This document shows positions 7,127 to 62,915 of a stretch of DNA of 64,000 nucleotides, piece by piece. A model generated the notes under the pieces. That model did not search any database and had not been told where the DNA came from. It saw only the letters and a list, made by a program, of their open reading frames with translations. Source of the DNA: a virus; IMG/VR virus record IMGVR_UViG_3300042514_001858, positions 1 to 64,000 of that record. One strand, given 5' to 3'. The position numbers were made by a program, and so were the translations under genes. Positions within the stretch are counted from its first letter, which is position 1. The number at the start of each line of letters is the position of its first letter.

Positions 7127-7140
7127 TGTCTGTATAGTGT

Positions 7141-8065: not shown

Positions 8066-8076
8066 GCACCGATTGT

Positions 8077-8787: not shown

Positions 8788-8798
8788 GGGTGAATTGT

Positions 8799-9287: not shown

Positions 9288-9292
9288 CTGAT

Positions 9293-12948: not shown

Positions 12949-12959
12949 GCTATTATTGT

Positions 12960-12973
12960 AATCTAGTTTTTAT
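12960..12973 (-). promoter_or_regulatory. CTAGAAT-type early element for the gene at 12610
   Basis: Minus strand reads AAAAACTAGATT then ACA; 11 nt to ATG 12948. Confidence 0.55.
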
Positions 12974-13454: not shown

Positions 13455-13465
13455 GATTATAGTAT

Positions 13466-13479
13466 ACCTTAGTTTTTAT
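13466..13479 (-). promoter_or_regulatory. Degenerate CTAGAAT-type element for the gene at 12987
   Basis: Minus strand reads AAAAACTAAGGT then ATAC; 11 nt to ATG 13454. The spacing is conserved although the hexamer differs. Confidence 0.45.
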
Positions 13480-17888: not shown

Positions 17889-17899
17889 AGCCCAATTGT

Positions 17900-17913
17900 A
17901 GGCTAGTTTTTAA
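17900..17913 (-). promoter_or_regulatory. CTAGAAT-type early element for the kinase gene
   Basis: Minus strand reads TTAAAAACTAGCCT then ACA; 11 nt to ATG 17888. Overlaps the stop of the upstream gene. Confidence 0.5.
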
Positions 17914-19125: not shown

Positions 19126-19130
19126 CTGAT

Positions 19131-19136
19131 TATTTA
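19131..19136 (-). promoter_or_regulatory. Late-promoter-like element for the metallopeptidase gene
   Basis: Minus strand TAAATA, then ATCAG, then ATG at 19125: 5 nt spacing. It contains the stop codon of the upstream gene. Confidence 0.55.
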
Positions 19137-22665: not shown

Positions 22666-22671
22666 TAAATA
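22666..22671 (+). promoter_or_regulatory. Late-promoter-like TAAATA
   Basis: TAAATA, then TCAAC, then ATG at 22677; 5 nt spacing. It lies back to back with the rmlB promoter. Confidence 0.5.
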
Positions 22672-22676
22672 TCAAC

Positions 22677-23141
22677 ATGGATCACGATGAAGATGATGAT
22701 TTTTTAAATGCAGAGGTAGATGATATTATTTCACAAATCAAAAATCAATCCAAAATTGTTAATCAATTACCGAAAGAACGACCAAATCTCAAGAAAGAAG
22801 ATTTGGAAGAATTTATTATTACCAATGCTGGTAAAGTCGTAAATCATTCTTTAGAAATGGTGGAGAACCTTAAATTGGAAGTTCTTGCTGGTGCAGATTC
22901 CAAGTTAATCGAGTCTGTATCAGAGTTGGTAAAAGCTACCACATCTGCAATTGATGCTCTTTCCAAATTAAAAATATCGGAGGACAAAATCAATGCACAG
23001 AAAGAAATCACTCAAATGAATATTCAAGCAAAAATCATTCGAGATGAAGAGGAGAGCAATACTCCAAAATTAAGTTTCACTAGAAACGATATCCTCAAAT
23101 TGTTGAACCAAAAAGACGAATCATTGGTAGTGGATGTTTAA
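22677..23141 (+). CDS. Helical phage protein, possible small terminase subunit (gp16-like)
   Basis: 154 residues, acidic N terminus (MDHDEDDDFLNAEVDDII) and a long helical body (VVNHSLEMVENLKLEVLAGA, then LVKATTSAIDALSKLKISED). Size and all-helical make-up fit T4-type small terminase subunits, which have a central coiled coil, but no direct motif proves it. An ATG at 22656 in frame would place the late promoter inside the gene, so 22677 is preferred. It is convergent with the gene at 23138. Confidence 0.45.
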   Translation: MDHDEDDDFLNAEVDDIISQIKNQSKIVNQLPKERPNLKKEDLEEFIITNAGKVVNHSLEMVENLKLEVLAGADSKLIESVSELVKATTSAIDALSKLKISEDKINAQKEITQMNIQAKIIRDEEESNTPKLSFTRNDILKLLNQKDESLVVDV

Positions 23142-28579: not shown

Positions 28580-28584
28580 CTAAT

Positions 28585-28590
28585 TATTTA
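28585..28590 (-). promoter_or_regulatory. Late-promoter-like TAAATA before a GTG start
   Basis: Minus strand TAAATA, then ATTAG, then GTG at 28579: exactly 5 nt. A GTG at the same spacing supports the register. Confidence 0.55.
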
Positions 28591-28599: not shown

Positions 28600-30420
28600 T
28601 TACCAATCGCCGCAAGCCGCTGCTTTGGGGGAACCTGATTTTGCTGAAGAGCATTTGTGCCTTGCACGGAAAGACTTCCTGCGTTTTGGGTTGTCTTTAC
28701 CAACTCTTACACCAGCTTGCCCCCAATGAATTCTTTTATATGAACCATCTGGTTGTCTAGCACATTTAGTCCATTTTTTACCTTTTCTATCACTAGATGC
28801 TTTTTTTGTCGAACCAGTGCATTTACTTTCGAGTAATGAATGGACTTCTTGAAGATCGATCATGAAATCGTTCATATCCAAATTAAACGAAGATGCATAT
28901 CTCGATGCCAATTCATCAAAAGATTCACTTATTACTTCTTTTTTCATACTTTGAACAGTGGACAACAATTGTTTTGCGACACTAAATCCTTGGCTATTTC
29001 TAAACCAGAATGATTTTAATCTATTATTTATGATTTTTTTATCTAAAGTAGTGAATGGTAATTTTGCGATCAATGGTTTCAAAACAGTTTTAGCATTCTC
29101 CCAGTCTTCTTTATTCCCAATACTTTCCAATTTACTAATAAAAGTTTTCAAAACTACAAAAGCAGGATTACTATCCAGATTTTCCAAAGGTATTGTTTTT
29201 CTATCTAAAGAGTTTGACGCGATACTTGTGAAGTATTTTCCCAACTCTTTAGCTGGTAACTTATCAAACATTCTCATAGCTCCTACGTTTATATTAGAAT
29301 TCATCAGTCTGGAATCAAACTCTTTCATTCTATCATCAAATTGTTTTTCATGTTCATCGATAAATGAAAAAATTGGATTATCGTCGGTTGTTAATGTTTG
29401 TAGCAATTTTAATTTTGATACAATATCTTTTGGAACTTTTACAAAATCAACATTTTTAGAATCTATCTCATCATCAGAAACTTTATTAGCTATTTTAGTT
29501 TCGAGGTAAAGTTTTTCAGCAGTGCGCTTGATCAAATTTTTCACCAATAAAATAACATTATCATTATTTTTGATATTTTCTTCAGTTACAGTGCTTATTT
29601 TGTCCTGCAATTCTTCTAATTTTTGTCTAGCTTCTAAAAATTGTTTTTCATCTGATACAAGTTTTTTACCTAAAGTATCTATTTCTTTTTGATATGTTGT
29701 AAGACTACTTTGTTTAGCTGAACTTTGTCTAAGACTGATATCAAACTGTGCCTGTTTTATTTGTTCATCGATACTATCTCTCTTATCAATATCTTTGGTT
29801 TTAGATTTTTTATTTTTTAATTTTTTTATGTAATCATTGATTTCGGAAATTTTATTTACGGCATTTTCAGCTTCCGCTTTCAATTTCATCAAATCATCTA
29901 TATCATTTCTGATTGCAGTATTATTCGATGCTCTGCGATCAACCTCAACCACAAGTCGGTTAAATTCTTTCTCCTCTTCAAGTGAAATAGAATTTCTAAG
30001 ATTGTTGGTTTCTCCATCAGCTTTTTCTTTTCGACCCATGTAGTCGCTATATATTTTTTTAAATTCAGAATAAAAACTTTTAAGATTGAAAAGTAATGCA
30101 AAAGAATTTCGCATTCTCATATTATTTTCAGCTTCCATCTGATATACATCTTTTTGACTAGCCATTTTTTTGGTATCTAGTCCATACTTTCTCATTTGAT
30201 CGATTTTTTGTCTCTTTTCAAAATTATCAACCACGCCAACTGGACCTGATGCATACCCTCTGGACGTTTCAGGTGAAAACGCTTGACCATCATCAGAAAT
30301 ACCAGCTTCAGTGCCAGTCACTCCTCTAGGACCGATTTGTCTTTGAGTATTGAAATATCTTTCTCCTGGCTTAGTTCCCTTTGCTTCCAATGCCAATGTA
30401 TATAAATCGTCGAAATTCAT
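28600..30420 (-). CDS. Virion-type coiled-coil protein with C-terminal basic/Cys tag
   Basis: 606 residues. The middle (about 150-300) is a long coiled coil (SEINDYIKKLKNKKSKTKDI and neighbours). The last 70 residues form a separate Cys/basic domain: KWTKCARQPDGSYKRIHWGQ, then PKRRKSFRARHKC and a terminal CGDW. Similar KRIHxGxxG...RRxSFxARH tags occur on small proteins of large marine viruses, with unknown role. The ATG at 30420 is 5 nt after TAAATA. Probably a virion protein. Confidence 0.55.
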   Translation of the reverse strand: MNFDDLYTLALEAKGTKPGERYFNTQRQIGPRGVTGTEAGISDDGQAFSPETSRGYASGPVGVVDNFEKRQKIDQMRKYGLDTKKMASQKDVYQMEAENNMRMRNSFALLFNLKSFYSEFKKIYSDYMGRKEKADGETNNLRNSISLEEEKEFNRLVVEVDRRASNNTAIRNDIDDLMKLKAEAENAVNKISEINDYIKKLKNKKSKTKDIDKRDSIDEQIKQAQFDISLRQSSAKQSSLTTYQKEIDTLGKKLVSDEKQFLEARQKLEELQDKISTVTEENIKNNDNVILLVKNLIKRTAEKLYLETKIANKVSDDEIDSKNVDFVKVPKDIVSKLKLLQTLTTDDNPIFSFIDEHEKQFDDRMKEFDSRLMNSNINVGAMRMFDKLPAKELGKYFTSIASNSLDRKTIPLENLDSNPAFVVLKTFISKLESIGNKEDWENAKTVLKPLIAKLPFTTLDKKIINNRLKSFWFRNSQGFSVAKQLLSTVQSMKKEVISESFDELASRYASSFNLDMNDFMIDLQEVHSLLESKCTGSTKKASSDRKGKKWTKCARQPDGSYKRIHWGQAGVRVGKDNPKRRKSFRARHKCSSAKSGSPKAAACGDW

Positions 30421-30425
30421 ATTAT

Positions 30426-30431
30426 TATTTA
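30426..30431 (-). promoter_or_regulatory. Late-promoter-like TAAATA
   Basis: Minus strand TAAATA, then ATAAT, then ATG at 30420: 5 nt. It lies opposite a plus-strand copy at 30443, forming a divergent pair. Confidence 0.55.
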
Positions 30432-31760: not shown

Positions 31761-31766
31761 TAAATA
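31761..31766 (+). promoter_or_regulatory. Late-promoter-like TAAATACTATT
   Basis: TAAATA, then CTATT, then ATG at 31772: 5 nt. TAAATACTATT equals the T4 late consensus core and its downstream bases. Confidence 0.6.
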
Positions 31767-31771
31767 CTATT

Positions 31772-32590
31772 ATGGGAAAAAAATTTGACGCAATTTATGA
31801 AACTGTTATTTCCAGAAGTGAAATTGGAGGTTATCTTCCAGGCGACTGTGTGAAATTTCGCACTGGTTACAAGAACACGGAAACCTACAAGCATATGCCA
31901 TCTACTCTTCAGAGAGAAGTTGATGAATTGGATAAATGTGGATTGAATATTAAAGTTGTTCAAGTAGGGGATAAACAATCGGGATTTTCTGCTGGTAATC
32001 AATTCAAACCAGCAGGTTGTGTTGTGTTGACTATCGCTGCTGATCACGGTGGGGGAAGAACTTATGGTAGAGTTACTGTAACTACTGATATGGTTGATAT
32101 TAGCGATGGTGTTCTAGTTCCTGATAAATTCAAGAAAAAAGATGTAGTCATTATCAAACCCAAGAAATTGGAAGTTGATCCAAATCTTATTACCAATGTA
32201 ACTGATAAAGGTAATGGTAAGAATACCCCAACCGATTTGAAATTGGCGGGAGAATCCAAGTCTTGGGATTTCACCAAAGAATTGGGTAATATTTATGATG
32301 AAATATTACAAGAAAAATTCGATTTCAAAAAAGCCGATAGAAATAAAAATGGGAAATTAGAGGATTGGGAAGAAAATATAGGTAAAAAAGTCTTTGGCGA
32401 TGACGAAGATGAAGATGATAGCGAAGACAATGACGAAGATAATGAGGATTGCGGGGAACAAGATGAACAGGATGCTTGCTATAAAAAAGTAAAATCCCGA
32501 TATGATGTATTTCCTAGTGCATATGCTTCTGGAGCATTAGTTAAATGTAGGAAAGTAGGAGCAAAAAATTGGGGGAATAGTAAAAAGTAA
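31772..32590 (+). CDS. Putative virion protein with EF-hand-like loop and C-terminal SAYASGALVKCRK tag
   Basis: 272 residues. An N-terminal domain of about 150 residues (GDCVKFRTGYKNTETYKHMP, then a beta-rich region) is followed by DRNKNGKLEDWEE, which fits an EF-hand calcium loop, and an extreme Asp/Glu tract. The C terminus (CYKKVKSRYDVFPSAYASGA, then LVKCRKVGAKNWG) is a small Cys domain also found on marine phage and giant-virus proteins. Function unknown. Confidence 0.55.
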   Translation: MGKKFDAIYETVISRSEIGGYLPGDCVKFRTGYKNTETYKHMPSTLQREVDELDKCGLNIKVVQVGDKQSGFSAGNQFKPAGCVVLTIAADHGGGRTYGRVTVTTDMVDISDGVLVPDKFKKKDVVIIKPKKLEVDPNLITNVTDKGNGKNTPTDLKLAGESKSWDFTKELGNIYDEILQEKFDFKKADRNKNGKLEDWEENIGKKVFGDDEDEDDSEDNDEDNEDCGEQDEQDACYKKVKSRYDVFPSAYASGALVKCRKVGAKNWGNSKK

Positions 32591-32852: not shown

Positions 32853-32858
32853 TAAATA
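32853..32858 (+). promoter_or_regulatory. Late-promoter-like TAAATA
   Basis: TAAATA, then ATAAT, then ATG at 32864: 5 nt. Confidence 0.55.
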
Positions 32859-32863
32859 ATAAT

Positions 32864-33625
32864 ATGGCTAGATATAATAATGAAGATCAACTTAATTTGG
32901 AAGAACTCTTAGAAGAAGGGTTCTTGGATCGCTTCAAAGCTCGTGGTGCGCAAGCACTTGGAGCAGTTAAAGGTGCGGGACAGCAATTAAAAGGTGGCGC
33001 ACAACAAATGGCTGGTAATGTTGTTCAAAAAGCTGGTAATTTAGCAGCTAAAGGAGTTCAAGCAATGGGTGGTCAAATCGATCCATCTCAAAACAAATTG
33101 ACTCAGGCTGGACAAGGAATGCAACAAGCAGGACAACAAAATGTTCAAGTAGGTGGAAACATGGGTAATAATGCCAAAATTGATTATTTGAAAAAAAATA
33201 TCACAAAAAGAATTGATAATTTTGTAGCTAATCTAAATAACGATGTCCAGAAATTAGGATTGAATATTGGAGAAATCAAATTTGCTTCGGAAATTCAAGA
33301 TGCTTTGGAAGGATTGAAACAAAACATTCAAACAACACAAGCTACCCCACCACCTTTACCACAACAATCTCAAGCAACACCACCTCCACTTCCTCAAGAT
33401 AATACAGTTGACGATCAAGTAGAACCAGAAGATGATGGTGTTAGTAGCTACGCAGCACAAAGACAACAACGTTCAGATAGATCGAAACAAGCTGCCGCTA
33501 ACAGAAAGCAACAACAATCTAAATTAGCTTCAAATCCGAAAAAAAGTAAATCTCGCAATATTCAAAAAACCTACGATAAGAATTTCGTAAGAGAGAATTA
33601 CGACAAGTTATTTTGGGGGGAATAA
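32864..33625 (+). CDS. Gln/Ala-rich virion-type protein, 253 aa
   Basis: Starts MARYNNEDQLNLEELLEEGF, then a Gln/Gly/Ala-rich region (VKGAGQQLKGGAQQMAGNVV) and proline runs (ATPPPLPQQSQATPPPLPQD), ending basic. Low complexity suggests a flexible virion or scaffold-type protein. It overlaps the convergent clamp-loader gene by 18 bp, and its terminator lies inside that gene. Confidence 0.5.
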   Translation: MARYNNEDQLNLEELLEEGFLDRFKARGAQALGAVKGAGQQLKGGAQQMAGNVVQKAGNLAAKGVQAMGGQIDPSQNKLTQAGQGMQQAGQQNVQVGGNMGNNAKIDYLKKNITKRIDNFVANLNNDVQKLGLNIGEIKFASEIQDALEGLKQNIQTTQATPPPLPQQSQATPPPLPQDNTVDDQVEPEDDGVSSYAAQRQQRSDRSKQAAANRKQQQSKLASNPKKSKSRNIQKTYDKNFVRENYDKLFWGE

Positions 33626-36394: not shown

Positions 36395-37126
36395 TTAATT
36401 ATCAAAAAATGTTATGTCAATATCAAATGATTTTTCTTCCCCATCGATAACCACTTTCGTTTGGGTTCTATCAATTTCTTTAATTTTATCAATAAATTTA
36501 GCAATATCTTGATTGATAGACAGAGGCAAGTTCTCAATTACTGAAATTCTATCTTTGACAGACAATTCAGAGAAGCCCAAAGATTTGTCACCGAATTTCA
36601 CACTCTTGACGAATTTGACAATTTCAAAGGTGAATAGATTAGTCAGATTCTTTCCAACATCTTTTTCTCCATCTTTTTTCAGAATATCAATTGCATAATT
36701 GATGACTTTATTTTCTTCAGATAATGTAGGGGTGTCCAATTCTACTGTCACTGCTCCTTCGACAATATGTTGGAGAGGAATATCAATTTTATCTAAAATT
36801 TTGATGTCTTTGATATCAATCTCTCCTTCTGATGTTTTAACGATGTCACCTAGACTTTCTTTTCTCAATTTTAAAATAACAGGGATTTTATCAACAACCA
36901 ACCAATCATTATTTCCAGTGTTTTCAATAATAATATCATTCAACATTTTTTGGAATTTCAAGACACCAACAGTTCCTTCTGTGAAAGTTGAAATAATATT
37001 TTTTTGTTGTTTGAATGACAAAGGAACACAATCAACTTTTTCACCAGTGGTGATACGATTTACTTTGAATTTTGTATTTTTTAAATCTTGGATACTTTCC
37101 AAGAAGTTCTTAACATTATTGTCCAT
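36395..37126 (-). CDS. Possible baseplate hub assembly protein (gp26-like)
   Basis: 243 residues. DCVPLSFKQQKNIISTFTEG and LKFQKMLNDIIIENTGNNDW fit the start of the T4 gp26-type baseplate family, as does the helical C terminus with ISVIENLPLSINQDIAKFID. The match is by pattern only. It begins an operon with a late promoter and precedes the sugar and clamp-loader genes. Confidence 0.5.
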   Translation of the reverse strand: MDNNVKNFLESIQDLKNTKFKVNRITTGEKVDCVPLSFKQQKNIISTFTEGTVGVLKFQKMLNDIIIENTGNNDWLVVDKIPVILKLRKESLGDIVKTSEGEIDIKDIKILDKIDIPLQHIVEGAVTVELDTPTLSEENKVINYAIDILKKDGEKDVGKNLTNLFTFEIVKFVKSVKFGDKSLGFSELSVKDRISVIENLPLSINQDIAKFIDKIKEIDRTQTKVVIDGEEKSFDIDITFFDN

Positions 37127-37131
37127 GCCCG

Positions 37132-37137
37132 TATTTA
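37132..37137 (-). promoter_or_regulatory. Late-promoter-like TAAATA
   Basis: Minus strand TAAATA, then CGGGC, then ATG at 37126: 5 nt. Spacer has G/C bases unlike other copies, so the TAAATA is not just local A/T bias. Confidence 0.6.
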
Positions 37138-38484: not shown

Positions 38485-39054
38485 TTAGACCAGTCCACGA
38501 TAGAAATGATACGCGAAAGTCGCAGTGAATGTTTTAATTTCACCAGTTCCATCAGCAATTTCATAAGAAACTTCGCTGATATTTCGAAGAGAAGCACCAA
38601 TCAATTGGATGGTTCTACCAACTTGCATTTCACTACCCGATGTCACATTGGAACCTCTTTGACAAGGGATTTGAAGAACATCCAAAGTAATTACGGATTC
38701 ATATCCTGGCATACAAATATTACCAGTGGTGGTTTCGTTGTCGAATAGGACTCTACTTGCTCTTTCGAGTTTCTCTCTGATATCCAAATTTTGATCAAGA
38801 TAAAATTCTACAGACCAACCTTCAGAACCTGGATAGCTAGATTTTCCAGGAATATTGAAAGTTTGACCAGAATAATTCACCTGTTTGTTTTCAATATCTC
38901 TTCCAGGAAAAGTAGCTGTTTTAGCGTAAACCAAATCAGTCTCACCATTCAAGGAGAGTCCTGTGATGTCGATCTGTTTAACACGGAAAAGGAAGTCGCG
39001 AGCAAATTGTTTTTGCATCGCCTGATTCATAAAATTTTCGATTGTGGTCGCCAT
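38485..39054 (-). CDS. Tail tube protein (gp19-like)
   Basis: 189 residues; T4 gp19 is 163. Motifs include LFRVKQIDITGLSL, VYAKTATFPGRDIENKQVNY (the tube insertion loop and PG turn), and WSVEFYLDQNLDIREKLERA. The order and size match the major tail tube subunit around which the sheath contracts. It follows the sheath gene in the T4 order with its own late promoter. Confidence 0.75.
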   Translation of the reverse strand: MATTIENFMNQAMQKQFARDFLFRVKQIDITGLSLNGETDLVYAKTATFPGRDIENKQVNYSGQTFNIPGKSSYPGSEGWSVEFYLDQNLDIREKLERASRVLFDNETTTGNICMPGYESVITLDVLQIPCQRGSNVTSGSEMQVGRTIQLIGASLRNISEVSYEIADGTGEIKTFTATFAYHFYRGLV

Positions 39055-39059
39055 AATAG

Positions 39060-39065
39060 TATTTA
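39060..39065 (-). promoter_or_regulatory. Late-promoter-like TAAATACTATT
   Basis: Minus strand TAAATA, then CTATT, then ATG at 39054: 5 nt. Confidence 0.6.
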
Positions 39066-39163: not shown

Positions 39164-41599
39164 TTATACCAATTCGTCGAAGTTTGCATCGGATCTGGTC
39201 GCTGTGAAGGTGCAGAGGATGAACTCACCAGTTCTCGTTGGTTTGATTAGAATATCAACTTTCAGTTCATTACTATCAATGACTTGTGGCGTGTTATTTC
39301 TTTCATCGCAGACAATCAAGTAATCATAGCAACCACCGTTTTCCTTCGCAGTTTTGAAGATTGGGTTCAATGTATTGACCAATCTGGTGCGAGTAAATTC
39401 ATTGTTAGGTTCAAACACGAAGAATTGTGCTGTTTTCTTGGTAGGTCTTTCCAGAGCAAGGAACAATCTACGAACATTGATACGATCAAATGCACTTGGT
39501 TTGCGTGACATCGTTTTTTGACCGAACACCACGATTCCTTGAGATGCAGAGAACATAACAGGGTTAATGTTTACCTTGTAAAGTTCATCACGTTGTTTCT
39601 GGTTAGGATTGATAGCGATATCCAAAGCGTTAGTTACAAGACCACGAGTGAATCCAGCAGGAGCAGACCATGGGAATTCAGCAGCATCGCTACGAGCCAT
39701 GATAGCAGCTTGATAACCAGAGAATGGAATCCAAACTTTTTCACCAGTGAAATCGTCATAAGCTTGCACCCAGTTACCATAGGTAGCTGCATACGAGGTG
39801 TTCTCCAATTCAAATTGGTGTCTCATTGCCCAATAAACGTCTAATTGGAAGTTTCTGGTTTTGTCAGTAAGAATCTTACTGTTTCTTCCAGTCACAAGAA
39901 GATGACGGATTGGATCAGCAATAAAGATACAATCACCACGACCACCAGTATTGGATGGAAGGTTGCAGAAATTTTCAAATTGATTGAACACTGCACTGTA
40001 ACTTCCGCGAATATCAGTAGCAACTGCATCATTGAAAATATCTTGTGATGTTCTGAGAGAATCAACTTTCGTTTTCAATGCAGGAGTGTATAGAGTGTCA
40101 TCGTAATAAGTTGTTCCAGCGGCAGATGCCATTGTGAATACCGTTCCAAGACCACCTTCCACGACAACATCGATGTCATAGATTTCATCATTTTTAACAC
40201 TTTCCAAAGCACGATTGATTTTACTTGGAATGCTTCCAAGGGTTTTTTGAGTAATCACTGTTGGGCTGTATGCACCAAGAGGATATAGAGCATCAGCTTT
40301 TACTGCCAATTTGTTAGTAATTTCATCCAATTGTTGTTGAAATGCTCCGAACTTGTTGGTAGCAGATAAACTACCAACAGCAGATAATTTGCTAACTTCA
40401 TTGTAGAAATTATCAGTAAACACTCTGATCTTCTTCTGAGGATTACCTGAAACATCCAACGAAGATTCTCTAAATTTGTTGGAAATGTATGGGTTCACCA
40501 TGATTTCCACATTACGAGCATTGGTATCTTGACTTTCCAAGAAGAAAGGAACAGATGGACCGCCTGTAGGATTGAGTTGAGTGCGGAATGTATCAATCGA
40601 ACCAACAACTCTGTCATCCAACACGAAATCCAATTTGAAGGATTCTGTGGCATAGATACTCTTACGAAGTTTGAATACACCAACGTTCAGAAGGTCATCA
40701 TCTTCTCTACCATCAATGTTGTAATCTGTAAGATTCTCCATGATTTGAGAGATGCTATTCGAAGCTCCTGTTGCAGTAGAAGACAGATTGAATTGCAGAG
40801 TGCCATTTGGAATCTGAGTATATGTGGTATGGTAAGCAGCAGTCAAGCTAGTGGTATATGCACGAGTGACAGCATTGAATGGGGAAGCTGGATCGATGTT
40901 AGTATTATCGCAAATACCGACATAGTAACCTTCAAATTGGCTATTGATAGTCGTTTGTGCTTTATCGAGAACGATAACACCAGCACCACCTAGCGATGCC
41001 AAGGAGTTGAGTCCTGTTCTAGTCGCAGCAGTTGCATTCCAATCAAATAGAGTTCCTTCCATTGCTTGGGCATATTGAGCTTCCGTTAAAGTGAACTGGA
41101 TAGGGCTACCCAAGATGTAAGAAGCAGCAGAAAGATCCAGATTAGTTGTAACCGATGCTGACAAATTGGCGATACTGGATAAAGCTGCTAAAGTTGCAGC
41201 GGAAAGAGTTTCGCTACTCAAATTAGCGACATTCGTGGCAGTAATAGGAACTGTAACAGTGTCGGGTTTAACCGCAATTACTGGATAAACCAGTGCAGTG
41301 TGTTGTGTACCGAATCCGTCACCAGAACCACTACCATAAGGAATGCGGAAAGTGTAGATATTGGCAGGAGAATTCAAAAGTTCTCTTACAGTATAATAAA
41401 AATATCTTTCAGCACTATTCGTTGGTGTGCCGTAAATCGAGTCCAATTCGTCTCTAGTGGTGATTTTGATCACTTCATCCGATGGTCCTTGTGGGGTGAA
41501 ACCAGTCACGAAAACGTTAGTACCAACATTTGTTGGTGCGATGAGACTCAAATCTCTTTCGAAAATTTCTACTCCTGGGCTGTTAATTGTTCGTTGCAT
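39164..41599 (-). CDS. Tail sheath protein (gp18-like)
   Basis: 811 residues; T4 gp18 is 659. N terminus INSPGVEIFERDLS with VTGFTPQGPSDEVIKITTRD is the sheath start, and the C-terminal NPVMFSASQGIVVFGQKTMS, NVRRLFLALERPTK and VCDERNNTP are the conserved end domain. It forms the contractile outer tube. The frame is open five codons upstream, but ATG at 41599 lies 5 nt after TAAATA. The extra length is in a middle insertion, probably an outward-facing domain. Confidence 0.9.
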   Translation of the reverse strand: MQRTINSPGVEIFERDLSLIAPTNVGTNVFVTGFTPQGPSDEVIKITTRDELDSIYGTPTNSAERYFYYTVRELLNSPANIYTFRIPYGSGSGDGFGTQHTALVYPVIAVKPDTVTVPITATNVANLSSETLSAATLAALSSIANLSASVTTNLDLSAASYILGSPIQFTLTEAQYAQAMEGTLFDWNATAATRTGLNSLASLGGAGVIVLDKAQTTINSQFEGYYVGICDNTNIDPASPFNAVTRAYTTSLTAAYHTTYTQIPNGTLQFNLSSTATGASNSISQIMENLTDYNIDGREDDDLLNVGVFKLRKSIYATESFKLDFVLDDRVVGSIDTFRTQLNPTGGPSVPFFLESQDTNARNVEIMVNPYISNKFRESSLDVSGNPQKKIRVFTDNFYNEVSKLSAVGSLSATNKFGAFQQQLDEITNKLAVKADALYPLGAYSPTVITQKTLGSIPSKINRALESVKNDEIYDIDVVVEGGLGTVFTMASAAGTTYYDDTLYTPALKTKVDSLRTSQDIFNDAVATDIRGSYSAVFNQFENFCNLPSNTGGRGDCIFIADPIRHLLVTGRNSKILTDKTRNFQLDVYWAMRHQFELENTSYAATYGNWVQAYDDFTGEKVWIPFSGYQAAIMARSDAAEFPWSAPAGFTRGLVTNALDIAINPNQKQRDELYKVNINPVMFSASQGIVVFGQKTMSRKPSAFDRINVRRLFLALERPTKKTAQFFVFEPNNEFTRTRLVNTLNPIFKTAKENGGCYDYLIVCDERNNTPQVIDSNELKVDILIKPTRTGEFILCTFTATRSDANFDELV

Positions 41600-41604
41600 A
41601 TAAT

Positions 41605-41610
41605 TATTTA
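41605..41610 (-). promoter_or_regulatory. Late-promoter-like TAAATA
   Basis: Minus strand TAAATA, then ATTAT, then ATG at 41599: 5 nt. Confidence 0.55.
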
Positions 41611-45893: not shown

Positions 45894-46252
45894 TATTTTT
45901 TAATTTCTACGATTTTTCCACATTGTTGACCATGAAGATTGGTAAACATTTTTATCATTTGATCGGAATTCTTTCTTTTGATTTCCTTTCCATCTTCAAA
46001 TTCGATGCCACCCAAAGATCCCAACTCTTTTAATAATTCATCACCAATTAAAATTTGTCCATTACTTCTGATCTTTTGATATGGTCCTTTAGTTGAAATA
46101 TTTTTCCTATTAACCATGCGAGCAATATCACTACCACCTTTTTTGTTTCTAGGATTTACTAAACTCTGTTTGATATTTCCGAAAGCATCTTTGTGTCGGT
46201 ATTCCAGTATGACACCGTTGTGTTTTTCAAAAAATTCCAGAAAAGATTCCAT
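45893..46252 (-). CDS. Hypothetical protein in head-neck cluster, 119 aa
   Basis: Starts MESFLEFFEKHNGVILEYRH; the middle is basic (NPRNKKGGSDIARMVNRKNI) and the end is beta-rich. No family. Its stop overlaps the neck gene start by 1 nt. It has its own late element and follows a terminator, so it starts the operon 46252-42252. Confidence 0.5.
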   Translation of the reverse strand: MESFLEFFEKHNGVILEYRHKDAFGNIKQSLVNPRNKKGGSDIARMVNRKNISTKGPYQKIRSNGQILIGDELLKELGSLGGIEFEDGKEIKRKNSDQMIKMFTNLHGQQCGKIVEIKK

Positions 46253-46257
46253 GTTAT

Positions 46258-46263
46258 TATTTA
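46258..46263 (-). promoter_or_regulatory. Late-promoter-like TAAATA
   Basis: Minus strand TAAATA, then ATAAC, then ATG at 46252: 5 nt. It lies directly after the terminator, as expected for a promoter. Confidence 0.6.
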
Positions 46264-47359: not shown

Positions 47360-47725
47360 TTATGGTTGATATGGTTTATTGGTTACAGTTACAGTTCCAG
47401 CATTAACATCCATATCGAATGAATTAGTTGGATATTTCAATTCAACAGTGGAACCATCAAATTGTGCCAATTCTGAAATTAATTGTGTCAATTTAGCGTG
47501 AAAATGGAAAACTTTGAATACATCAACTCCCAATTCATCGATAATTTCTTGAGGAGTCAAGTTTTCATGATTCCACATGATATCAATACCATCTCTCTGT
47601 GTCTTAACCAAATTATTAAAGCAATTTTTTGATAATTGTTTAATACGTCTGGTTGTATTTTCCAGTTTAATCTTCTTTGGCACTGGCACTCGTAATGGTA
47701 TTGTATTGTCTCCTAATAATGACAT
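47360..47725 (-). CDS. Hypothetical virion-region protein, 121 aa
   Basis: Basic N terminus (PKKIKLENTTRRIKQLSKN), helical middle and a beta-rich C terminus (TNSFDMDVNAGTVTVTNKPY). The gene has a late element 5 nt before ATG 47725 and is followed 4 nt later by the acidic protein. No family. Confidence 0.5.
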   Translation of the reverse strand: MSLLGDNTIPLRVPVPKKIKLENTTRRIKQLSKNCFNNLVKTQRDGIDIMWNHENLTPQEIIDELGVDVFKVFHFHAKLTQLISELAQFDGSTVELKYPTNSFDMDVNAGTVTVTNKPYQP

Positions 47726-47729
47726 GCTA

Positions 47730-48530
47730 TTATTTAGCTAAATTTTTCCAAAATTCGTATCCATCTGTAATTTTACATAAATTTTCCCCTAAAATTTCAA
47801 TTGCTTTAGGTTTTGATGGAATAACTGAGCTTTTAATTTTATGTAAATCAACATAATTATAAACACCATCATCTTCTATTGTTTGATTTATAATATTTTT
47901 AAAATCGTGATTACATCTAGGTATTTCGAGAAAATCCCAAATTACGTTCATAGTTCGTTCTGGTTCATTCGTAAGATAATCGTAATCAACCAATAAAAAT
48001 CTATCACCCAATCCTCTTTGAAAGGCATCTTTTAAAATATTATATGCGACCCCAACTTCACCATTTAAACTAGCCCAATGCATCATTCGACCTTCAGTAT
48101 TTATACATTGCGGCATCGGTCCTTGGGGTGGAAATTTATAAGAACCTTTTCTATAGAGAACTTCAAAAGAAGCCAATACTTCTTTTATATCACGCACAGG
48201 TGCAATAATTTTAACTTTTCTATTGGTTATGGTTTCCAACATCTCAATACCGCCTCCCCAACCTCTACACTTATCTAAAACAAATTCTTTATCAGTATCG
48301 TGATAATTCTGTAAAGTGCTTTTTAAAATTCTTTTTAAATTATCATCTTTTCCAGCATTTTTATCTGCTCTGTGTTCAATGATGTTATTCCAAGAAACTT
48401 TAATATCGTGTAATAATTGAAATAATCCTGATGTGGGGGTGCAAAAAACTTTTGGATTTTGTGCCATGAGATTCATCAATAATGTGCTACCTGATCTAGG
48501 TAATCCCGAAACATAGTGTATGTTTTTCAT
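47730..48530 (-). CDS. Sulfotransferase family protein
   Basis: 266 residues. The 5'-phosphosulfate loop is GLPRSGSTLL at 9-18 and the 3'-phosphate binding region is IAPVRDIKEVLASF. A WDFLEIP motif follows. It would move sulfate from PAPS to a sugar or protein acceptor. Similar genes occur in some aquatic myoviruses. Its start overlaps the glycosyltransferase stop (ATGA-type), so the two products probably act on the same glycan. Confidence 0.8.
   Translation of the reverse strand: MKNIHYVSGLPRSGSTLLMNLMAQNPKVFCTPTSGLFQLLHDIKVSWNNIIEHRADKNAGKDDNLKRILKSTLQNYHDTDKEFVLDKCRGWGGGIEMLETITNRKVKIIAPVRDIKEVLASFEVLYRKGSYKFPPQGPMPQCINTEGRMMHWASLNGEVGVAYNILKDAFQRGLGDRFLLVDYDYLTNEPERTMNVIWDFLEIPRCNHDFKNIINQTIEDDGVYNYVDLHKIKSSVIPSKPKAIEILGENLCKITDGYEFWKNLAK
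47731..47736 (-). promoter_or_regulatory. Late-promoter-like TAAATA
   Basis: Minus strand TAAATA, then ATAGC, then ATG at 47725: 5 nt. It overlaps the sulfotransferase stop. Confidence 0.55.
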
Positions 48531-49423: not shown

Positions 49424-50815
49424 TTAAATCAATGCTATTTTTTTAATCACACCATTAATATTTACTACTAGGCATGTACCACCGTTTGTAGTTGATAGTG
49501 GGTATGTTGCCGACCCCAATGCTAATTGATTGTGGCTTGTTGGAATAGCACACGATCCAAGAGCGATGGATGCTGATAAAGATGCGCCAGATCTATATCC
49601 TATAAAAATTGAGTGACAAGCATTAATAGCACCACTACCAGCACCATTACCTAAGAAATTAGAATTACTTGCATTCGTAGCACCATTACCAGCACTATAA
49701 CCTAAGAAATTAGAACTACTTGCATTCGTAGCACCATTACCAGCACTCTGCCCTAAGAAATTGGAGTTATTTGCACACGTAGCACTACTACCAGCACCAT
49801 TACCTAAGAAATTGGAGTTACATGCACTATAAGCACCACAACCAGCATTGTTACCTAAGAAATTGGAAACACATGCATTTGTAGCACCATTACCAGCATT
49901 ATAACCTAAGAAATTAGAGTTACTTGCACAAAAAGCACCAAAACCAGCATTATTACCTAAGAAATTAGAATTACAAGCATACGTAGCACCAGAACCAGCC
50001 TGATACCCTAAGAAATTAGAACTGCAAGCATCTGTAGCACCAGAACCAGCATTATCACCTAAGAAATTAGAACTGGAAGCATTTGCAGCATTATTACCAG
50101 CTTTATAACCTAAGAAATTAGAATTATTTGCACCTGTAGCACTACTACCAGCACTCTGCCCTAAGAAATTAGACTTACTTGCACACGTAGCACCATTACC
50201 AGCACTCTGCCCTAAGAAATTAGAATTACTTGCACAACAAGCACCACTACCAGCACTATTACCTAAGAAATTAGAATAACTTGCACACGTAGCACCATTA
50301 CCAGCACTATAACCTAAGAAATTAGAACTACTTGCACAAAAAGCACCATTACCAGCACTATAACCTAAGAAATTAGAATTACTTGCACACGTAGCACTAC
50401 TACCAGCACAATTACCCAAGAAATTGGAACCACTTGCACCTGTAGCACTCTGACCAGCACTTTTGCCTACAAAAAAGCTACCTGCGCGTGTTGCGCTAAT
50501 AGGTAAACTACCTATGTTGATCGCACTTGTAGCAAAAGTTTGAGTCGTTGAGAAATTATTATCAACGTTCACTTTCGCGTAATTAGCAGAATTAGCACGG
50601 AAAGTAGTCGCAGTGCTTTGCCAGTTGGATGATAAGCTACGAACTGTGGTTGCAGAACTTTGCCAGTCAGAGGATAAGCTACGAACTGTGGTATCCGTAT
50701 AATTTTTGATAGAGCTTAAAGGAGTATTGTATGTTACCCCCTTTTGATTCAAAATAAAAGTCTCACCACCAGATAGGGGTGTTGTTGCTGGATCATATTG
50801 GGAAATCTTAGGCAT
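49424..50815 (-). CDS. Fibre or surface protein with 17-residue SNFLG repeats
   Basis: 463 residues. N-terminal 110 residues are like a tail-fibre attachment (PLSGGETFILNQKGVTYNTP, then two copies of VRSLSSxWQSxAT). Residues 113-401 are 17 units of the type SNFLGxxAGxGAxxAxx. Such pentapeptide-like runs occur in phage fibres and probably form a beta-helix or stacked coil. Cys is frequent at the variable positions. A late element is at 50821. Probable tail or head fibre. Confidence 0.7.
   Translation of the reverse strand: MPKISQYDPATTPLSGGETFILNQKGVTYNTPLSSIKNYTDTTVRSLSSDWQSSATTVRSLSSNWQSTATTFRANSANYAKVNVDNNFSTTQTFATSAINIGSLPISATRAGSFFVGKSAGQSATGASGSNFLGNCAGSSATCASNSNFLGYSAGNGAFCASSSNFLGYSAGNGATCASYSNFLGNSAGSGACCASNSNFLGQSAGNGATCASKSNFLGQSAGSSATGANNSNFLGYKAGNNAANASSSNFLGDNAGSGATDACSSNFLGYQAGSGATYACNSNFLGNNAGFGAFCASNSNFLGYNAGNGATNACVSNFLGNNAGCGAYSACNSNFLGNGAGSSATCANNSNFLGQSAGNGATNASSSNFLGYSAGNGATNASNSNFLGNGAGSGAINACHSIFIGYRSGASLSASIALGSCAIPTSHNQLALGSATYPLSTTNGGTCLVVNINGVIKKIALI
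49613..50479 (-). repeat. Array of seventeen 51-bp coding repeats
   Basis: Each unit holds the plus-strand core CCTAAGAAATTAGAA and encodes a 17-residue repeat. Units are near-identical in the SNFLG part and differ at the residues that follow. The array is intact in frame. Confidence 0.85.
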
Positions 50816-50820
50816 GTGAT

Positions 50821-50826
50821 TATTTA
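50821..50826 (-). promoter_or_regulatory. Late-promoter-like TAAATA
   Basis: Minus strand TAAATA, then ATCAC, then ATG at 50815: 5 nt. Paired with the plus-strand copy at 50836. Confidence 0.6.
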
Positions 50827-50835
50827 GTCATCAAT

Positions 50836-50841
50836 TAAATA
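50836..50841 (+). promoter_or_regulatory. Late-promoter-like TAAATA before a GTG start
   Basis: TAAATA, then ATAAT, then GTG at 50847: 5 nt. With 50821-50826 it makes a divergent promoter pair in a 31-nt gap. Confidence 0.6.
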
Positions 50842-50846
50842 ATAAT

Positions 50847-51332
50847 GTGAGTATTAAAATATCATCTCTTCAAAAGTCAAAAGCACAAAAAAATGCAAGT
50901 TCTTCTGGATATTTGTATAAAGATGTCAATTTTGACCTCAAACCAGCTTATTCTTACAATAATCAATTGAATAGAAAAGAAAATTTGAAGGATATTCAAG
51001 CTATATTCGACGTTGAAGCGATTAAAAATAGTATTGTTAATTGTTTCTTGACTGCACCTGGTCAAAAGATATTGAATCCTACCTTTGGTATCGATCTGAG
51101 AAGATTTCTGTTTGAACCTGTGGATGATTATACCTCGGAAATCATCGAAGATGACATCTCAAGAAGATTACCTCTTTTAGAACCAAGAATTACAGTGACA
51201 GATGTTTCAGTAATTGCTGATCCCGATGCACAGGAATATCGAATTTTTCTACAAATCAATATCCCATCTTTAGATGTGGAAGGTTTAAGTATTAAATCAA
51301 AATTAAACACCATCGGTTACACTATCCTCTAA
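50847..51332 (+). CDS. Baseplate wedge protein (gp25-like)
   Basis: 161 residues, start GTG at 50847. The gp25 core is present: IKNSIVNCFLTAPGQKILNP, then FGIDLRRFLFEPVDD. This small wedge protein links baseplate and sheath and helps trigger contraction. It begins the plus-strand baseplate operon, followed at once by gp6-like. Confidence 0.85.
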   Translation: MSIKISSLQKSKAQKNASSSGYLYKDVNFDLKPAYSYNNQLNRKENLKDIQAIFDVEAIKNSIVNCFLTAPGQKILNPTFGIDLRRFLFEPVDDYTSEIIEDDISRRLPLLEPRITVTDVSVIADPDAQEYRIFLQINIPSLDVEGLSIKSKLNTIGYTIL

Positions 51333-57759: not shown

Positions 57760-58244
57760 ATACCTCATATTTATCATTATCTTCGATTAACACATCCAAT
57801 ACAACAACATTACCTTTGGTGGTGTTGAATGACATAACAACACTGAATGTTGTTTTGACTGGTGTTTCAGAAAAATTTTTACCTTGTTTTTTAAGAATAA
57901 ATTGGGGTGATAATGTTGAAGATTTTTTTGAAAATGATGTCATGTTGAACATTTTTTCACCGATTAGTAGGTATTCGGAGGTATTGAACAATACTCATAG
58001 TCATGTGTATTACCCAAGTGTTTCTTCAACAAGTCAAAATCTATCGGCAAATTTTTACGTATCCTATTGTAATGGTGATATCTCCACTTTCACCGTTCCC
58101 ATCAGTGTTGTTAATTATAATTATTCACAAAGTATTGAAGATTTGACGTTGATAAACACCATTAGCAAATTCGATAAAAAAATACACCAATTTGTGACCA
58201 AAAATGGTGGGTATTTGATTGAGCTTGAAACACCGTTCAATTAA
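57756..58244 (+). CDS. Tail-module protein, PKD-like fold, 162 aa
   Basis: INWGDNVEDF at about residue 47 and THSHVYYP resemble the metal/turn motif of PKD/immunoglobulin-like repeats (xWGDG...HxY). Mostly beta. Coupled to the upstream gene by ATGA overlap. No function is known. Confidence 0.5.
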   Translation: MNTSYLSLSSINTSNTTTLPLVVLNDITTLNVVLTGVSEKFLPCFLRINWGDNVEDFFENDVMLNIFSPISRYSEVLNNTHSHVYYPSVSSTSQNLSANFYVSYCNGDISTFTVPISVVNYNYSQSIEDLTLINTISKFDKKIHQFVTKNGGYLIELETPFN

Positions 58245-58247
58245 ATA
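58242..58247 (+). promoter_or_regulatory. Late-promoter-like TAAATA before a GTG start
   Basis: TAAATA, then CTAAT, then GTG at 58253: 5 nt. An ATG two bases earlier is out of frame. Confidence 0.55.
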
Positions 58248-58252
58248 CTAAT

Positions 58253-60457
58253 GTGGATACCTTTATAAGTAAAATATCATCCTGTAACGCTCGTGAATTT
58301 TCATACAATGATGAGAATTTCACGCTCGATAAATTTGAAAGATACTACGATGGGGGGTATAAATTTAATTTTTATAATGCATTTTCCAACATCAGAGATG
58401 TCAAATATAAAAATTACAGCATTTTCTATTTGACTGATGAGCGTAAGCTGTCTGACATAACTGTTAATGATAAAAATGTTATAAAATTGGAAAAGTCTCT
58501 GACATTTTTAAAATTTGGAGAAATTTATTTAGAATTCAAACCAAAAGATACGAATCAATTGGGATTATCTGGTATTTATACCAATTATGATTATTATGGA
58601 GATTATTCTTTTTTCAATATTACATCAGATTCGACCAATTTTATAATTGATCTGAAAGATTCAAATGTTTGCAACATTTACAAAATTTACAATTATAAAA
58701 AATATTATCTAACGCAAGATTCTAACAACACTGTTAATTTTTACACTAGAAAATTAGGATTGTCTGGTATAGATTTCAATTACATTTACTCTAGCTCTAA
58801 TAACTCGTTATGCCTATTCAGAAATGATGGATCTTGTAAGTTACTAACAAAACAAGGTAATACACTAACTTTGGTTCCGTTTACAAGTGCCAATAAAGTT
58901 TTGGCTCCTCTGAACAATATCAAAATTGATAAAAAAATCTATAATAATATTGACAACAATCAGAATTTTTCATTGGTTGGTTATGATGAGAGTAACACCA
59001 TTCCAGATAATCTGATAGAAAAAGATTTATCTAATAATTATCTATTACATTCTGAAAACGATGATGTTGAGATCGTCACTTTGAAAAACCAATTGACTCA
59101 GGAAGATATTTTCACATCTGGAAACACTTTGATATCTTCAAACAATTCTCCTTTCTATATGAAAGAGATGAGATCGTATACATCGATTTTCAATGATATT
59201 GATAGTGAGAGAGACGAAAGTTTGTCTTTAAATTATGTATTTTACAATAAACCTTATATCATTAAAAGTGGTATAAATACGATTAAAGCTCCAAACGATC
59301 TAAATCCTTTCATAAAAATCAACATAAATGATACAAAATTTGTGGAATCGGGAGCATTTTCGTATACCACACCTCTTTATGCTGATAAAGTTTACAAATT
59401 AGATAATAACAATGGATATACCGATGGACAAAATTACCTATGCACTTGGTTATCTGGTTCGCCTTTAAGTAACAATAAAGTATGGGTAGATAGATATTAC
59501 TATCCTGATCGGATTGAAAAGGCATCTGCATTAGCGACCAATTCAACCTTTAATATTACTTACACTGATTTGGTCGAACAATTGGTGTCTGGAAATGATC
59601 TCATCAAACAAAGTCTGTCAGCTTATCAAGTTTTCGATAAAAAAAGTGATTTCATCATTGAACCAAATGATGTATTTGTATATGAACGGTTGAATTCTTT
59701 ACCTGTTGTGAGTTCTCCAGATGAGATTCCAGTGTGTAAAATTGAAGATATTAATTTTTTCAACGAAATAAATTATTTCGAAAATATAAATACAGATGGT
59801 GTCTTTTCCATATTTTTCACCTTTAGCGGTGATAATACCAATTGGTCATTTTTTAGTAAACGCAATAATATTGATGGTGGGTTGAATATTGATAAAAATA
59901 GTGATAACATTTCCTTTTTGTTAAATTTGTATGATCCTAGTAATGAAAATACTACTAGTTTTGATGCTACTGCAAGCTTTAAAAAATTAAAAATTAACAC
60001 GTTGGTATTTGCCATCGATACTATTAATGGACGAGGATATTTTAATCTGAATGGCACAAGTATCAAAGAGTTCACTTTTGATATATCACAATTTTTTGGT
60101 AAGAAAATACTTTTTGGAGACTTTGTTGATAATAATCATATCCAAAATTTCAAAATATATACCAGATATATTGATTTCGACGAATCTTTAATATTGCCAT
60201 ATACCAATGGGTTGCAAAGTATAGATACTCTGGTTATCACTATTCCATCTGGACAGCGAAATAGCGAAGATGAAATCGAATTGTTACAAAGTGTCTGTAA
60301 TAATCAAACCTTCAAATCAAATCATGTTGATATTTTGATTAAAAATATTAGTCTCCCTGATAATATCAAAAATGAATTGAAAAGGATTGTAACGGAAACA
60401 TGCAAGTCCTTCTCACCTTTAACTTCGGAAGTAAATAACATAGAATTTATTGAATAA
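58253..60457 (+). CDS. Large tail protein with C-terminal lectin-like domain
   Basis: 734 residues, GTG start. Residues about 515-650 (DGVFSIFFTFSGDNTNWSFF, FKKLKINTLVFAIDTINGRG, then IQNFKIYTRYIDFDESLI) look like a LamG/concanavalin-type jelly roll that often binds carbohydrate. The earlier part is beta-rich and unrecognised. It could be a receptor-binding or tail-surface protein. Confidence 0.5.
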   Translation: MDTFISKISSCNAREFSYNDENFTLDKFERYYDGGYKFNFYNAFSNIRDVKYKNYSIFYLTDERKLSDITVNDKNVIKLEKSLTFLKFGEIYLEFKPKDTNQLGLSGIYTNYDYYGDYSFFNITSDSTNFIIDLKDSNVCNIYKIYNYKKYYLTQDSNNTVNFYTRKLGLSGIDFNYIYSSSNNSLCLFRNDGSCKLLTKQGNTLTLVPFTSANKVLAPLNNIKIDKKIYNNIDNNQNFSLVGYDESNTIPDNLIEKDLSNNYLLHSENDDVEIVTLKNQLTQEDIFTSGNTLISSNNSPFYMKEMRSYTSIFNDIDSERDESLSLNYVFYNKPYIIKSGINTIKAPNDLNPFIKININDTKFVESGAFSYTTPLYADKVYKLDNNNGYTDGQNYLCTWLSGSPLSNNKVWVDRYYYPDRIEKASALATNSTFNITYTDLVEQLVSGNDLIKQSLSAYQVFDKKSDFIIEPNDVFVYERLNSLPVVSSPDEIPVCKIEDINFFNEINYFENINTDGVFSIFFTFSGDNTNWSFFSKRNNIDGGLNIDKNSDNISFLLNLYDPSNENTTSFDATASFKKLKINTLVFAIDTINGRGYFNLNGTSIKEFTFDISQFFGKKILFGDFVDNNHIQNFKIYTRYIDFDESLILPYTNGLQSIDTLVITIPSGQRNSEDEIELLQSVCNNQTFKSNHVDILIKNISLPDNIKNELKRIVTETCKSFSPLTSEVNNIEFIE

Positions 60458-62232
60458 TGATTACATATTTTAAATATACAAACGGTGAATCCTTTACCTC
60501 AAATGGTATTGATTATTCAGGATTTTTTAATGTTGATAATGGTATAGCTTATACAGGTAAAACCAAAGACCAATTCTCTGAAGAATTGACATCGAAAAAT
60601 AATTTTTCCTCAGAATTTTATCTTAGAAAATTAGAATTTGATAATCAATTTGATTCGATTCAAAACATAACACCATATTTCACTAATGCTTTTGATGTTT
60701 TAAATAAAAATGAATTAGATAAAATTTTCGATAAAATCAACACTAATAATTTGATTGTTTTTAAATCTTTAATTATTAGTAATCCCCAAATTGTGGATTT
60801 CGATGAAAACGATTGCCATTTTTATGGGCTATCATCAACAATTAGAGATGAAAGAAACGATGATTTGATGGTGGGTAAAGATGTAGTCACACATATTGAT
60901 AATTTTAACTATTCTAGTGAATGGGATTTTTTGGAAAAAGTAAAATATGGTGATTTTATCGTAAAATCGGATCAAACATTCAAATATCTCTGCTCCACTG
61001 GTAAAGAATTGATAACAATAAATGGATCATTTGATGATACTTCATTATTGACATATGATATCCAAGAGTTGGAATTTGGTAAGGAAGTTTATGGCATAAA
61101 TTATGATGAATTTGAAAATAAAATCAATATAATTATAAATGATGTCATCAACACTTATGAAGGATTGAATTATATCGAATGTGGAACTTTAATCTTAATT
61201 GATAGTATAAAAATCGGCAATGTTGACACCATTTCTTTAAAATGGAGTGCTAAAGAGAAATTTTCAAAAGCATTTGGTTATTTCAATGACAAATTTTTTA
61301 ACATAAATTCCAATAATGTGAAATTTATGAAATATGGTGACAATATAAGAACAGTAATTGATAAAAATATTCTTTATCTTTGGAATAAAAAATCTTCAAC
61401 ATTACTTGGAACGGTAAATCTACTCGAATATAACATAGAAAATGTTGTGGCAATTGATATCAGAAATGTCGATGATTTTGTTATTATTTTACACGAAAAA
61501 AACGGTATTTATTCGATTTTTACATTTGATCCTTATTCTATCTCCACTACTTTCATTAATTATGAAATAAATGATTTGGATACAGATAATTATGATGTCG
61601 CTTTTTCAACTTACGATTCTAATATCTTCTACATAAGAAGTGTGAAAAATATTGAAACAAGATTTATATCAAATCCCCGTAATACTGCCAATAATTTCAA
61701 GAAATTTAATTTAAAATATCCACCTGATTATCTTTTCAAAAACACTTATCATAAGTTTGGTAATACTCCAACTAAGTGGAATACCAATAGAATGAATGCT
61801 AATAACTTTTATAATTTGTTATTCAGTGAAATCACCAAAGGTAATAAGAATTATACAATATTACACAATTCTGGTAGAATATATGCTCTAAAACAACCTA
61901 TTGAAGATAATAGATATACTGCAATTGATAGTAATATTACGAAAAATTTCAAAAATGTAACATGTGGAGATTATTCGTTCGGTATATTTTTCAATCAAAA
62001 TCTTTTAAACATTCTGAAAGACGTATTGACACTCTTTACCAAAGCGTCAAATTCATTTAATTTTAGAAAAGATGAAGTATTATTAAATAATATTGAATTG
62101 ATCAATTACGACTTTGATAATTTACGAGTTAATGGTAATGAAAGCATCAACACAACGACTATGCAGAGAATTTTCACATTAATAGTCGAAATTCAGCAAA
62201 AATTAATTTCCAATTTAACAACTTCCGAATAA
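60457..62232 (+). CDS. Large tail protein, 591 aa, possible propeller-like
   Basis: Beta-rich with regularly spaced aromatic/Gly strands in the middle (NVKFMKYGDNIRTVIDKNIL, then YSIFTFDPYSISTTFINYEI), and RCC1/propeller-like HNSGRIYALKQ and CGDYSFGIFF. The N terminus (TYFKYTNGESFTSNGIDYSG) is unlike known families. Coupled to the upstream gene (TAATG). Role unknown, probably tail fibre network. Confidence 0.45.
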   Translation: MITYFKYTNGESFTSNGIDYSGFFNVDNGIAYTGKTKDQFSEELTSKNNFSSEFYLRKLEFDNQFDSIQNITPYFTNAFDVLNKNELDKIFDKINTNNLIVFKSLIISNPQIVDFDENDCHFYGLSSTIRDERNDDLMVGKDVVTHIDNFNYSSEWDFLEKVKYGDFIVKSDQTFKYLCSTGKELITINGSFDDTSLLTYDIQELEFGKEVYGINYDEFENKINIIINDVINTYEGLNYIECGTLILIDSIKIGNVDTISLKWSAKEKFSKAFGYFNDKFFNINSNNVKFMKYGDNIRTVIDKNILYLWNKKSSTLLGTVNLLEYNIENVVAIDIRNVDDFVIILHEKNGIYSIFTFDPYSISTTFINYEINDLDTDNYDVAFSTYDSNIFYIRSVKNIETRFISNPRNTANNFKKFNLKYPPDYLFKNTYHKFGNTPTKWNTNRMNANNFYNLLFSEITKGNKNYTILHNSGRIYALKQPIEDNRYTAIDSNITKNFKNVTCGDYSFGIFFNQNLLNILKDVLTLFTKASNSFNFRKDEVLLNNIELINYDFDNLRVNGNESINTTTMQRIFTLIVEIQQKLISNLTTSE

Positions 62233-62235
62233 ATA
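62230..62235 (+). promoter_or_regulatory. Late-promoter-like TAAATA
   Basis: TAAATA, then ATATT, then ATG at 62241: 5 nt. It includes the upstream stop codon. Confidence 0.55.
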
Positions 62236-62240
62236 ATATT

Positions 62241-62915
62241 ATGCTACCTGATCTTACTGACCAATTCATCGCAGATTCTTATGCAGGAATATTACATACC
62301 TCAAATGTACCTGTTAGTGAAACCAACTTACCACAAATTTATGATGGTTTGGGTAATAAAACATCCATGAAAATTGGTTCTGAAGGTGGTGGTGCTTCTT
62401 TCACTGGAACATTATCAGCAGATGGTTTCGCGATAACAGGATACGCATCTTTGATCGATTACATTTATCCTGTAAATTCAATTTATCTCTCAATTGATAA
62501 TATCAATCCACAATTAAGATTTTTAAATACCACATGGCAAAATGTGGCAGAAGGTAAATTTTTGGCTGGTGTTGGTTTGGGTAATGATGGAGTAAATAAT
62601 AAAAACATTACAAGCGGTAATAATAGTGGTAAATATGAAACCACATTAACCGTAGATCAGTTACCAAGTCATACCCACACTGGTGTTACAGGTACTGTAG
62701 GAAGTGGTGGTGAAGCTATAACAGATGGTGAACCAACTCTACTAGATTCGCTACAATCGTTTAATCATCAAAATAGTGGACATACATCATCTACCGATTC
62801 AAATAAAATATTGAAATTAGATGGTCAAGTATTTTTAAATAATACTGGTAGTGGTAGTCCCATCGATAATACACCACCATCATTCGGTGTCTATGTCTGG
62901 AAAAGAATTTCATAA
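62241..62915 (+). CDS. Tail collar/baseplate fibre protein (gp10/gp12 C-terminal-like)
   Basis: 224 residues. The tail-collar pattern is clear: YPVNSIYLSIDNINPQLRFL, TTWQNVAEGKFLAGVGLGND, LTVDQLPSHTHTGVTG, and a terminal TPPSFGVYVWKRIS. T4 gp10 and gp12 and many phage collar fibres end this way; HTHTG residues bind metal in gp12-like trimers. It probably attaches fibres or binds the host surface. Confidence 0.8.
   Translation: MLPDLTDQFIADSYAGILHTSNVPVSETNLPQIYDGLGNKTSMKIGSEGGGASFTGTLSADGFAITGYASLIDYIYPVNSIYLSIDNINPQLRFLNTTWQNVAEGKFLAGVGLGNDGVNNKNITSGNNSGKYETTLTVDQLPSHTHTGVTGTVGSGGEAITDGEPTLLDSLQSFNHQNSGHTSSTDSNKILKLDGQVFLNNTGSGSPIDNTPPSFGVYVWKRIS

Follow-up and report, generated by a model that had tools for sequence, protein, structure and literature searches.

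Three promoter classes in an uncultured T4-related phage and its relatives are placed so that RNA would start on the start codon or three bases before it, and this layout of late, early and bacterial-type promoters suggests, as judged from sequence, phages that are largely leaderless and free of ribosome-binding sites. In particular, the hexamer TAAATA found 5 nt before many ATG and GTG codons very probably represents a T4-type late promoter, read by the sigma factor gp55 with +1 on the start codon so that the mRNA would be leaderless, the same placement recurring in the two other classes.

The virus record and its relatives

The window, which is the whole stretch of 64,000 nt analysed, corresponds to bases 1-64000 of a virus record of 154,167 bp with 34.5% GC. 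The record is that of an uncultured T4-related phage and encodes homologues of the T4 DNA polymerase, clamp loader, helicase, primase, RecA-like protein, terminase, portal, capsid, prohead protease, sheath, baseplate wedge and late sigma gp55; the closest isolates are distant (terminase 35%, capsid 33%). The clade set includes the record and four relatives of 178-207 kb (five genomes), all of which may be incomplete records. Gene calls are heuristic and were made for the present analysis, and "early" and "late" are labels taken from promoter type and gene content, not from measured timing.

The gene of the terminase large subunit gp17 (42252-45092, minus strand) carries an insertion matching a LAGLIDADG model and, below the curated cut-off, Intein_splicing; the terminase match is ~356 codons shorter in several relatives and, therefore, a probable intein is present in some members and absent in others. 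Another intein is probable in a nucleotide-sugar epimerase/dehydratase gene (20580-22625, minus strand), which is interrupted by a stretch matching Intein_splicing at 9.5e-7, again below the curated cut-off. ARAGORN found no tRNA genes in the window's own record, unlike the relatives L058, L059, L071-L073, L078, L079 and L087, in each of which 6 to 20 are predicted. As for the host, the markers WhiB and PsbA were not found in nine records, and the search of genome contigs for the early-promoter pattern gave 11 single matches in unrelated taxa, which were treated as chance. The capsid protein was compared with samples of 380-395 genomes per phylum for three phyla; its only match was in a Prochlorococcus single-cell genome (35%), and absence from such drawn samples shows little.

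Late boxes at a fixed distance from the start codon

The first-pass annotation had listed 17 starts with TAAATA exactly 5 nt upstream, and TAAATA-N5-RTG is present at all of them:

50813..50826, minus strand, late box, ATG start 50815, 463-aa protein; half of a divergent pair
50836..50849, plus strand, late box, GTG start 50847, gp25-like baseplate wedge subunit; other half of the pair
1065..1078, plus strand, late box, start 1076, endonuclease VII-like
9282..9295, plus strand, late box, start 9293, endonuclease-like
19123..19136, minus strand, late box, start 19125
22666..22679, plus strand, late box, start 22677
28577..28590, minus strand, late box, GTG start 28579, tape-measure-like
30418..30431, minus strand, late box, start 30420
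31761..31774, plus strand, late box TAAATACTATT-ATG, start 31772
32853..32866, plus strand, late box, start 32864
37124..37137, minus strand, late box, start 37126
39052..39065, minus strand, late box, start 39054
41597..41610, minus strand, late box, start 41599, tail sheath gp18
46250..46263, minus strand, late box, start 46252
47723..47736, minus strand, late box, start 47725
58242..58255, plus strand, late box, GTG start 58253
62230..62243, plus strand, late box, start 62241, tail protein

The register is held at the three GTG starts (28579, 50847 and 58253) and by the variants TAAGTA (start 38468) and TAAATC (start 49399), and copies at 6-7 nt exist, as had been reported (starts 26610, 51343 and 55228). 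Two additional sites were found in the window:

11667, plus strand, TAAATA-N5-RTG, opposite to a predicted gene
46934-46947, minus strand, TAAATA-N5-ATG, at an internal in-frame ATG of the 343-aa gene 46325-47356

A near-identical string is found at the second of these in relatives; it could give a shorter product or be due to chance within conserved coding sequence.

An equal frequency in shuffled sequence had been named beforehand as an outcome that would speak against this arrangement; the window holds 19 sites, the shuffles 3.49 +/- 1.84. The search over the whole record, which contains 232 TAAATA copies, gives a signal stronger than first reported: 53 sites at spacing 5 versus a mean of 6.3 at other spacings between 0 and 40 (Poisson p ~1e-30) and 7.3 +/- 2.4, at most 15, in first-order Markov simulation. 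The RTG opens an ORF of at least 60 codons at 49 of the 53 sites versus 29 of 144 at spacings outside 5-8; sheath, gp25 and prohead protease genes are among those preceded by such boxes, and the profile of 43 late boxes carries no -35 information upstream.

The T4 late box TATAAATA spans -13 to -6 (PMC1524935), in agreement with the first-pass annotation; +1 then falls five nt after TAAATA and, in the clade, would be the start codon. The clade box is RYTAAATAATA, in which the T4 "TA" at -13/-12 is not kept. Two observations count against a late promoter fused to the start codon: the initiator test for late boxes at 6 and 8 nt is weak, and some genes have no box at 5 nt. Among the latter is the capsid gene gp23, whose predicted start (record position 133101, plus strand; L012:9101-10552) has no TAAATA at that distance, in contrast to neighbouring head genes.

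Conservation of the spacing

The four relatives contain 50, 53, 54 and 55 spacing-5 sites, and 226 of 699 boxes are at spacing 5 in the sum of 42 terminase loci, some of which overlap these relatives. When the record's spacing-5 genes with an alignable N-terminus were followed into their orthologues, the box was at exactly 5 nt in 36/39, 34/37, 29/36 and 26/34 cases. The exact spacing persists even where proteins are on average 59% identical and the upstream 30 nt 43%; in the last two sets these 30 nt are 43-48% identical, and each of the two has one differently spaced box.

Late-transcription machinery

The homologue search proposed in the first-pass annotation was positive for gp55 and negative for gp33. 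The late sigma homologue is encoded at record positions 93900-94340 (phrog_234, E 7e-25; T4 gp55 by phmmer, 1.2e-12), and the sliding clamp gp45 (phrog_223) has homologues in all five records. For the co-activator gp33, phrog_254 yielded nothing up to E 1 and the tail motif nothing convincing; gp33 is a fast-evolving protein, and true absence is not implied. The C-terminus of gp55, SLDFLYEAND in T4, is EGDEYDDND or EGDEYDDE in the clade, which has no clamp-binding motif; this tail is also missing in gp55 of cyanophage Syn9, which does have gp33. Since gp33 is undetected and the clamp-binding motif is not kept, clamp-activated late transcription of the T4 style can be assumed only tentatively here. 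The +1 on the start codon, as first proposed, is supported by the T4 offset, the gp55 and gp45 homologues, the spacing kept in relatives and the lack of a peak in T4 and Syn9.

Early-type and sigma70-type promoters

Two promoter classes beyond those of the first-pass annotation point the same way. The early-type class has the form AAAAACTAG-N2-TANANT-N6-ATG, with a variant in which N9 replaces N6; the element TTAAAAACTAG sits immediately 5' of the TANANT -10, and the implied leader is 0 or 3 nt. The record has 21 copies of AAAAACTA and relatives have 44-125, and 10 to 79 copies per genome are 15 nt before ATG or GTG; where a -10-like TANNNT intervenes, it is 6 nt, or in a minority 9 nt, from the ATG. 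The 6-nt kind, with 102 distinct spacers, always has C or T as nucleotide 6 after the -10, followed by ATG, and the 9-nt kind, with 28, has Y at nucleotide 6 in 89% and R at nucleotide 7 in 96%. As this Y/R step keeps its place although the ATG is 3 nt further on, the initiator is tied to the -10 and not to the start codon, which implies a 3-nt leader. The early-type promoters of the window are the following:

339..364, minus strand, AAAAACTAGAATACAAT-N6-ATG, start 341
4729..4754, minus strand, AAAAACTAGAATACACT-N6-ATG, start 4731
5390..5415, minus strand, start 5392
7124..7152, minus strand, 3-nt-leader kind (-10 to ATG 9 nt), start 7126
8063..8088, minus strand, start 8065
8785..8810, minus strand, start 8787
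12946..12971, minus strand, start 12948
13452..13477, minus strand, start 13454
17886..17911, minus strand, start 17888

The sigma70-type class, TTGACW-N16-TANNNT-N6-RTG, peaks at 6 nt in 5/5 clade genomes and includes the start of the DNA polymerase gene. Box-to-start distances over the late, early and sigma70 classes are, respectively, 5, 6 and 6 nt; the gp55-type offset of 5 nt and the sigma70-type offset of 6 nt are each the usual distance of the class to +1.

Shine-Dalgarno use and proposed mechanism

Shine-Dalgarno (SD) motifs are absent from the late starts of the record (0/43), as had been noted, and likewise from early (0/10) and sigma70 (0/7) starts. In the five clade genomes SD-like motifs show no clear excess over shuffles at late, early, sigma70 or internal starts, apart from a mild one in two classes (internal starts of genome G006, 21 vs 11 expected; early starts of genome G005, 6 vs 2.5). 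The controls were HTVC008M, Syn9, Melnitz and phiYS40, with T4 left out, and their larger gene classes show an excess of ~2.5-4-fold in the first three and ~1.6-2-fold in phiYS40. Among 205 predicted genes, 98, close behind another gene, start without a late, early or sigma70 box, and TAAATA is thus not a general start signal. The operon-internal class was defined after removal of box-bearing genes; the argument that its starts have no box was dropped for this reason, and the count of box-less genes is the only part used as evidence. The commonest arrangement at operon-internal starts of the record is a 4-nt overlap with the previous stop (22/107).

The gp55 sigma on the host RNA polymerase would read the TAAATA boxes, and with +1 on the first base of the start codon late genes would be expressed as leaderless mRNAs, on which ribosomes would start without SD. 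Early-type and sigma70-type promoters, placed likewise, would make many first genes of transcription units leaderless, and genes inside operons, often with a 4-nt overlap with the preceding stop, may depend on translational coupling or re-initiation. A host that hardly uses SD would explain this layout most simply. The wider proposal of a widespread T4-related clade in which all promoter classes are leaderless, SD is not used and gp55 works without gp33 or a clamp-binding tail is tentative, and somewhat doubtful as a whole. If the leaderless reading holds, start codons in these genomes could be read from promoters, a T4-type sigma system would have been adapted to supply leaderless translation, and a host that hardly uses SD would be predicted by the phage's own sequence.

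Alternative explanations

The boxes could be host -10 elements read by a host sigma, leaderless but without a T4-type late system. This alternative, already raised in the first-pass annotation, draws on the similarity of TAAATA to a -10, on TTGACA found 15-17 nt upstream of some late-type boxes and on the sigma70-type promoters with leaderless spacing in the same genome; the -10 classes at 6 nt are indeed present there as separate sets and likewise point to leaderless mRNA. However, for the late boxes it is unlikely: they show no -35 information, fit an offset of 5 nt and not 6, and precede sheath, gp25 and prohead protease genes in a record with a gp55 homologue.

Slightly less probable still is that TAAATAAT is an A/T-rich translation signal, that is, an unstructured or S1-binding stretch or a Kozak-like context, and no promoter, with transcripts starting elsewhere. 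The clade has no clear SD use, A-rich regions precede its internal starts, and for several phyla A/T-rich initiation without SD has been discussed (PMC5397173). In contrast, the presence of gp55 in a genome whose fixed hexamer, at one exact spacing, matches the T4 late box, the 98 of 205 genes without any box, and an early class with another box, another spacing and a Y/R initiator locked to its -10 all argue for promoters.

Chance spacing in an A/T-rich genome was rejected as practically negligible, since, common as TAAATA is (232 copies), neither shuffles, simulations nor the Poisson expectation approach the observed counts, and T4 has no significant peak with its 225 copies at 35% GC.

Comparison with known systems

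The late promoters resemble those of T4 in the short TAAATA-type box without a -35, in gp55 and gp45 and in the position before structural genes; they differ in the box sequence, in the undetected gp33, in the gp55 tail and in distance, the boxes of T4 being mostly ~20-30 nt before the start codon instead of 5 nt. The same ~20-30 nt is usual in Syn9, which has no significant spacing-5 peak.

Whole-phage leaderless late expression had been put forward as new. The principle is already known, since most middle and late transcripts of Thermus phage phiYS40 are leaderless, according to the statement in PMC3594737 that cites Sevostyanova 2007; a gp55-type promoter fused to the start codon was not found described in the open-access literature searched, and its novelty is provisional. 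As its mRNAs are reported leaderless, phiYS40 is a positive control, and its TTGACW-N17-TANNNT-N6-RTG peak was recovered with the same script. Its likeness to the clade, a -10 box lying 6 nt ahead of the start codon of reportedly leaderless mRNAs, is one of promoter geometry alone; unlike the clade, phiYS40 has no TAAATA-N5 class and shows an SD excess at part of its genes. In Deinococcus-Thermus, -10-adjacent leaderless ORFs have TANNNT, most commonly TACACT, 6-7 nt upstream, a comparable geometry; these are bacterial genes, and PMC12340547, where consulted, describes no AAAAACTAG element or gp55 class.

For pelagimyophages, a prediction of middle and late promoters has been tried in the literature without success (PMC7029224). 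Pelagibacter phage HTVC008M (KC465899), T4-related and with gp55, has 15 TAAATA-N5-RTG sites (p 2.6e-4), which in the stretch checked are mostly at annotated starts:

6280, 7562, 11972, 18943, 19456, 31132 and 49760, plus strand, late-box spacing at annotated starts
16007 and 18916, minus strand, late-box spacing at annotated starts

These include a divergent pair (18916, minus strand, and 18943, plus strand) and a baseplate wedge gene (31132). In contrast to the clade, this is a minority set in a genome with zero copies of the AAAAACTAG class and with SD-like sites strongly enriched elsewhere; HTVC008M is cultured and, with its partial set, makes the transcription part of the proposal directly testable.
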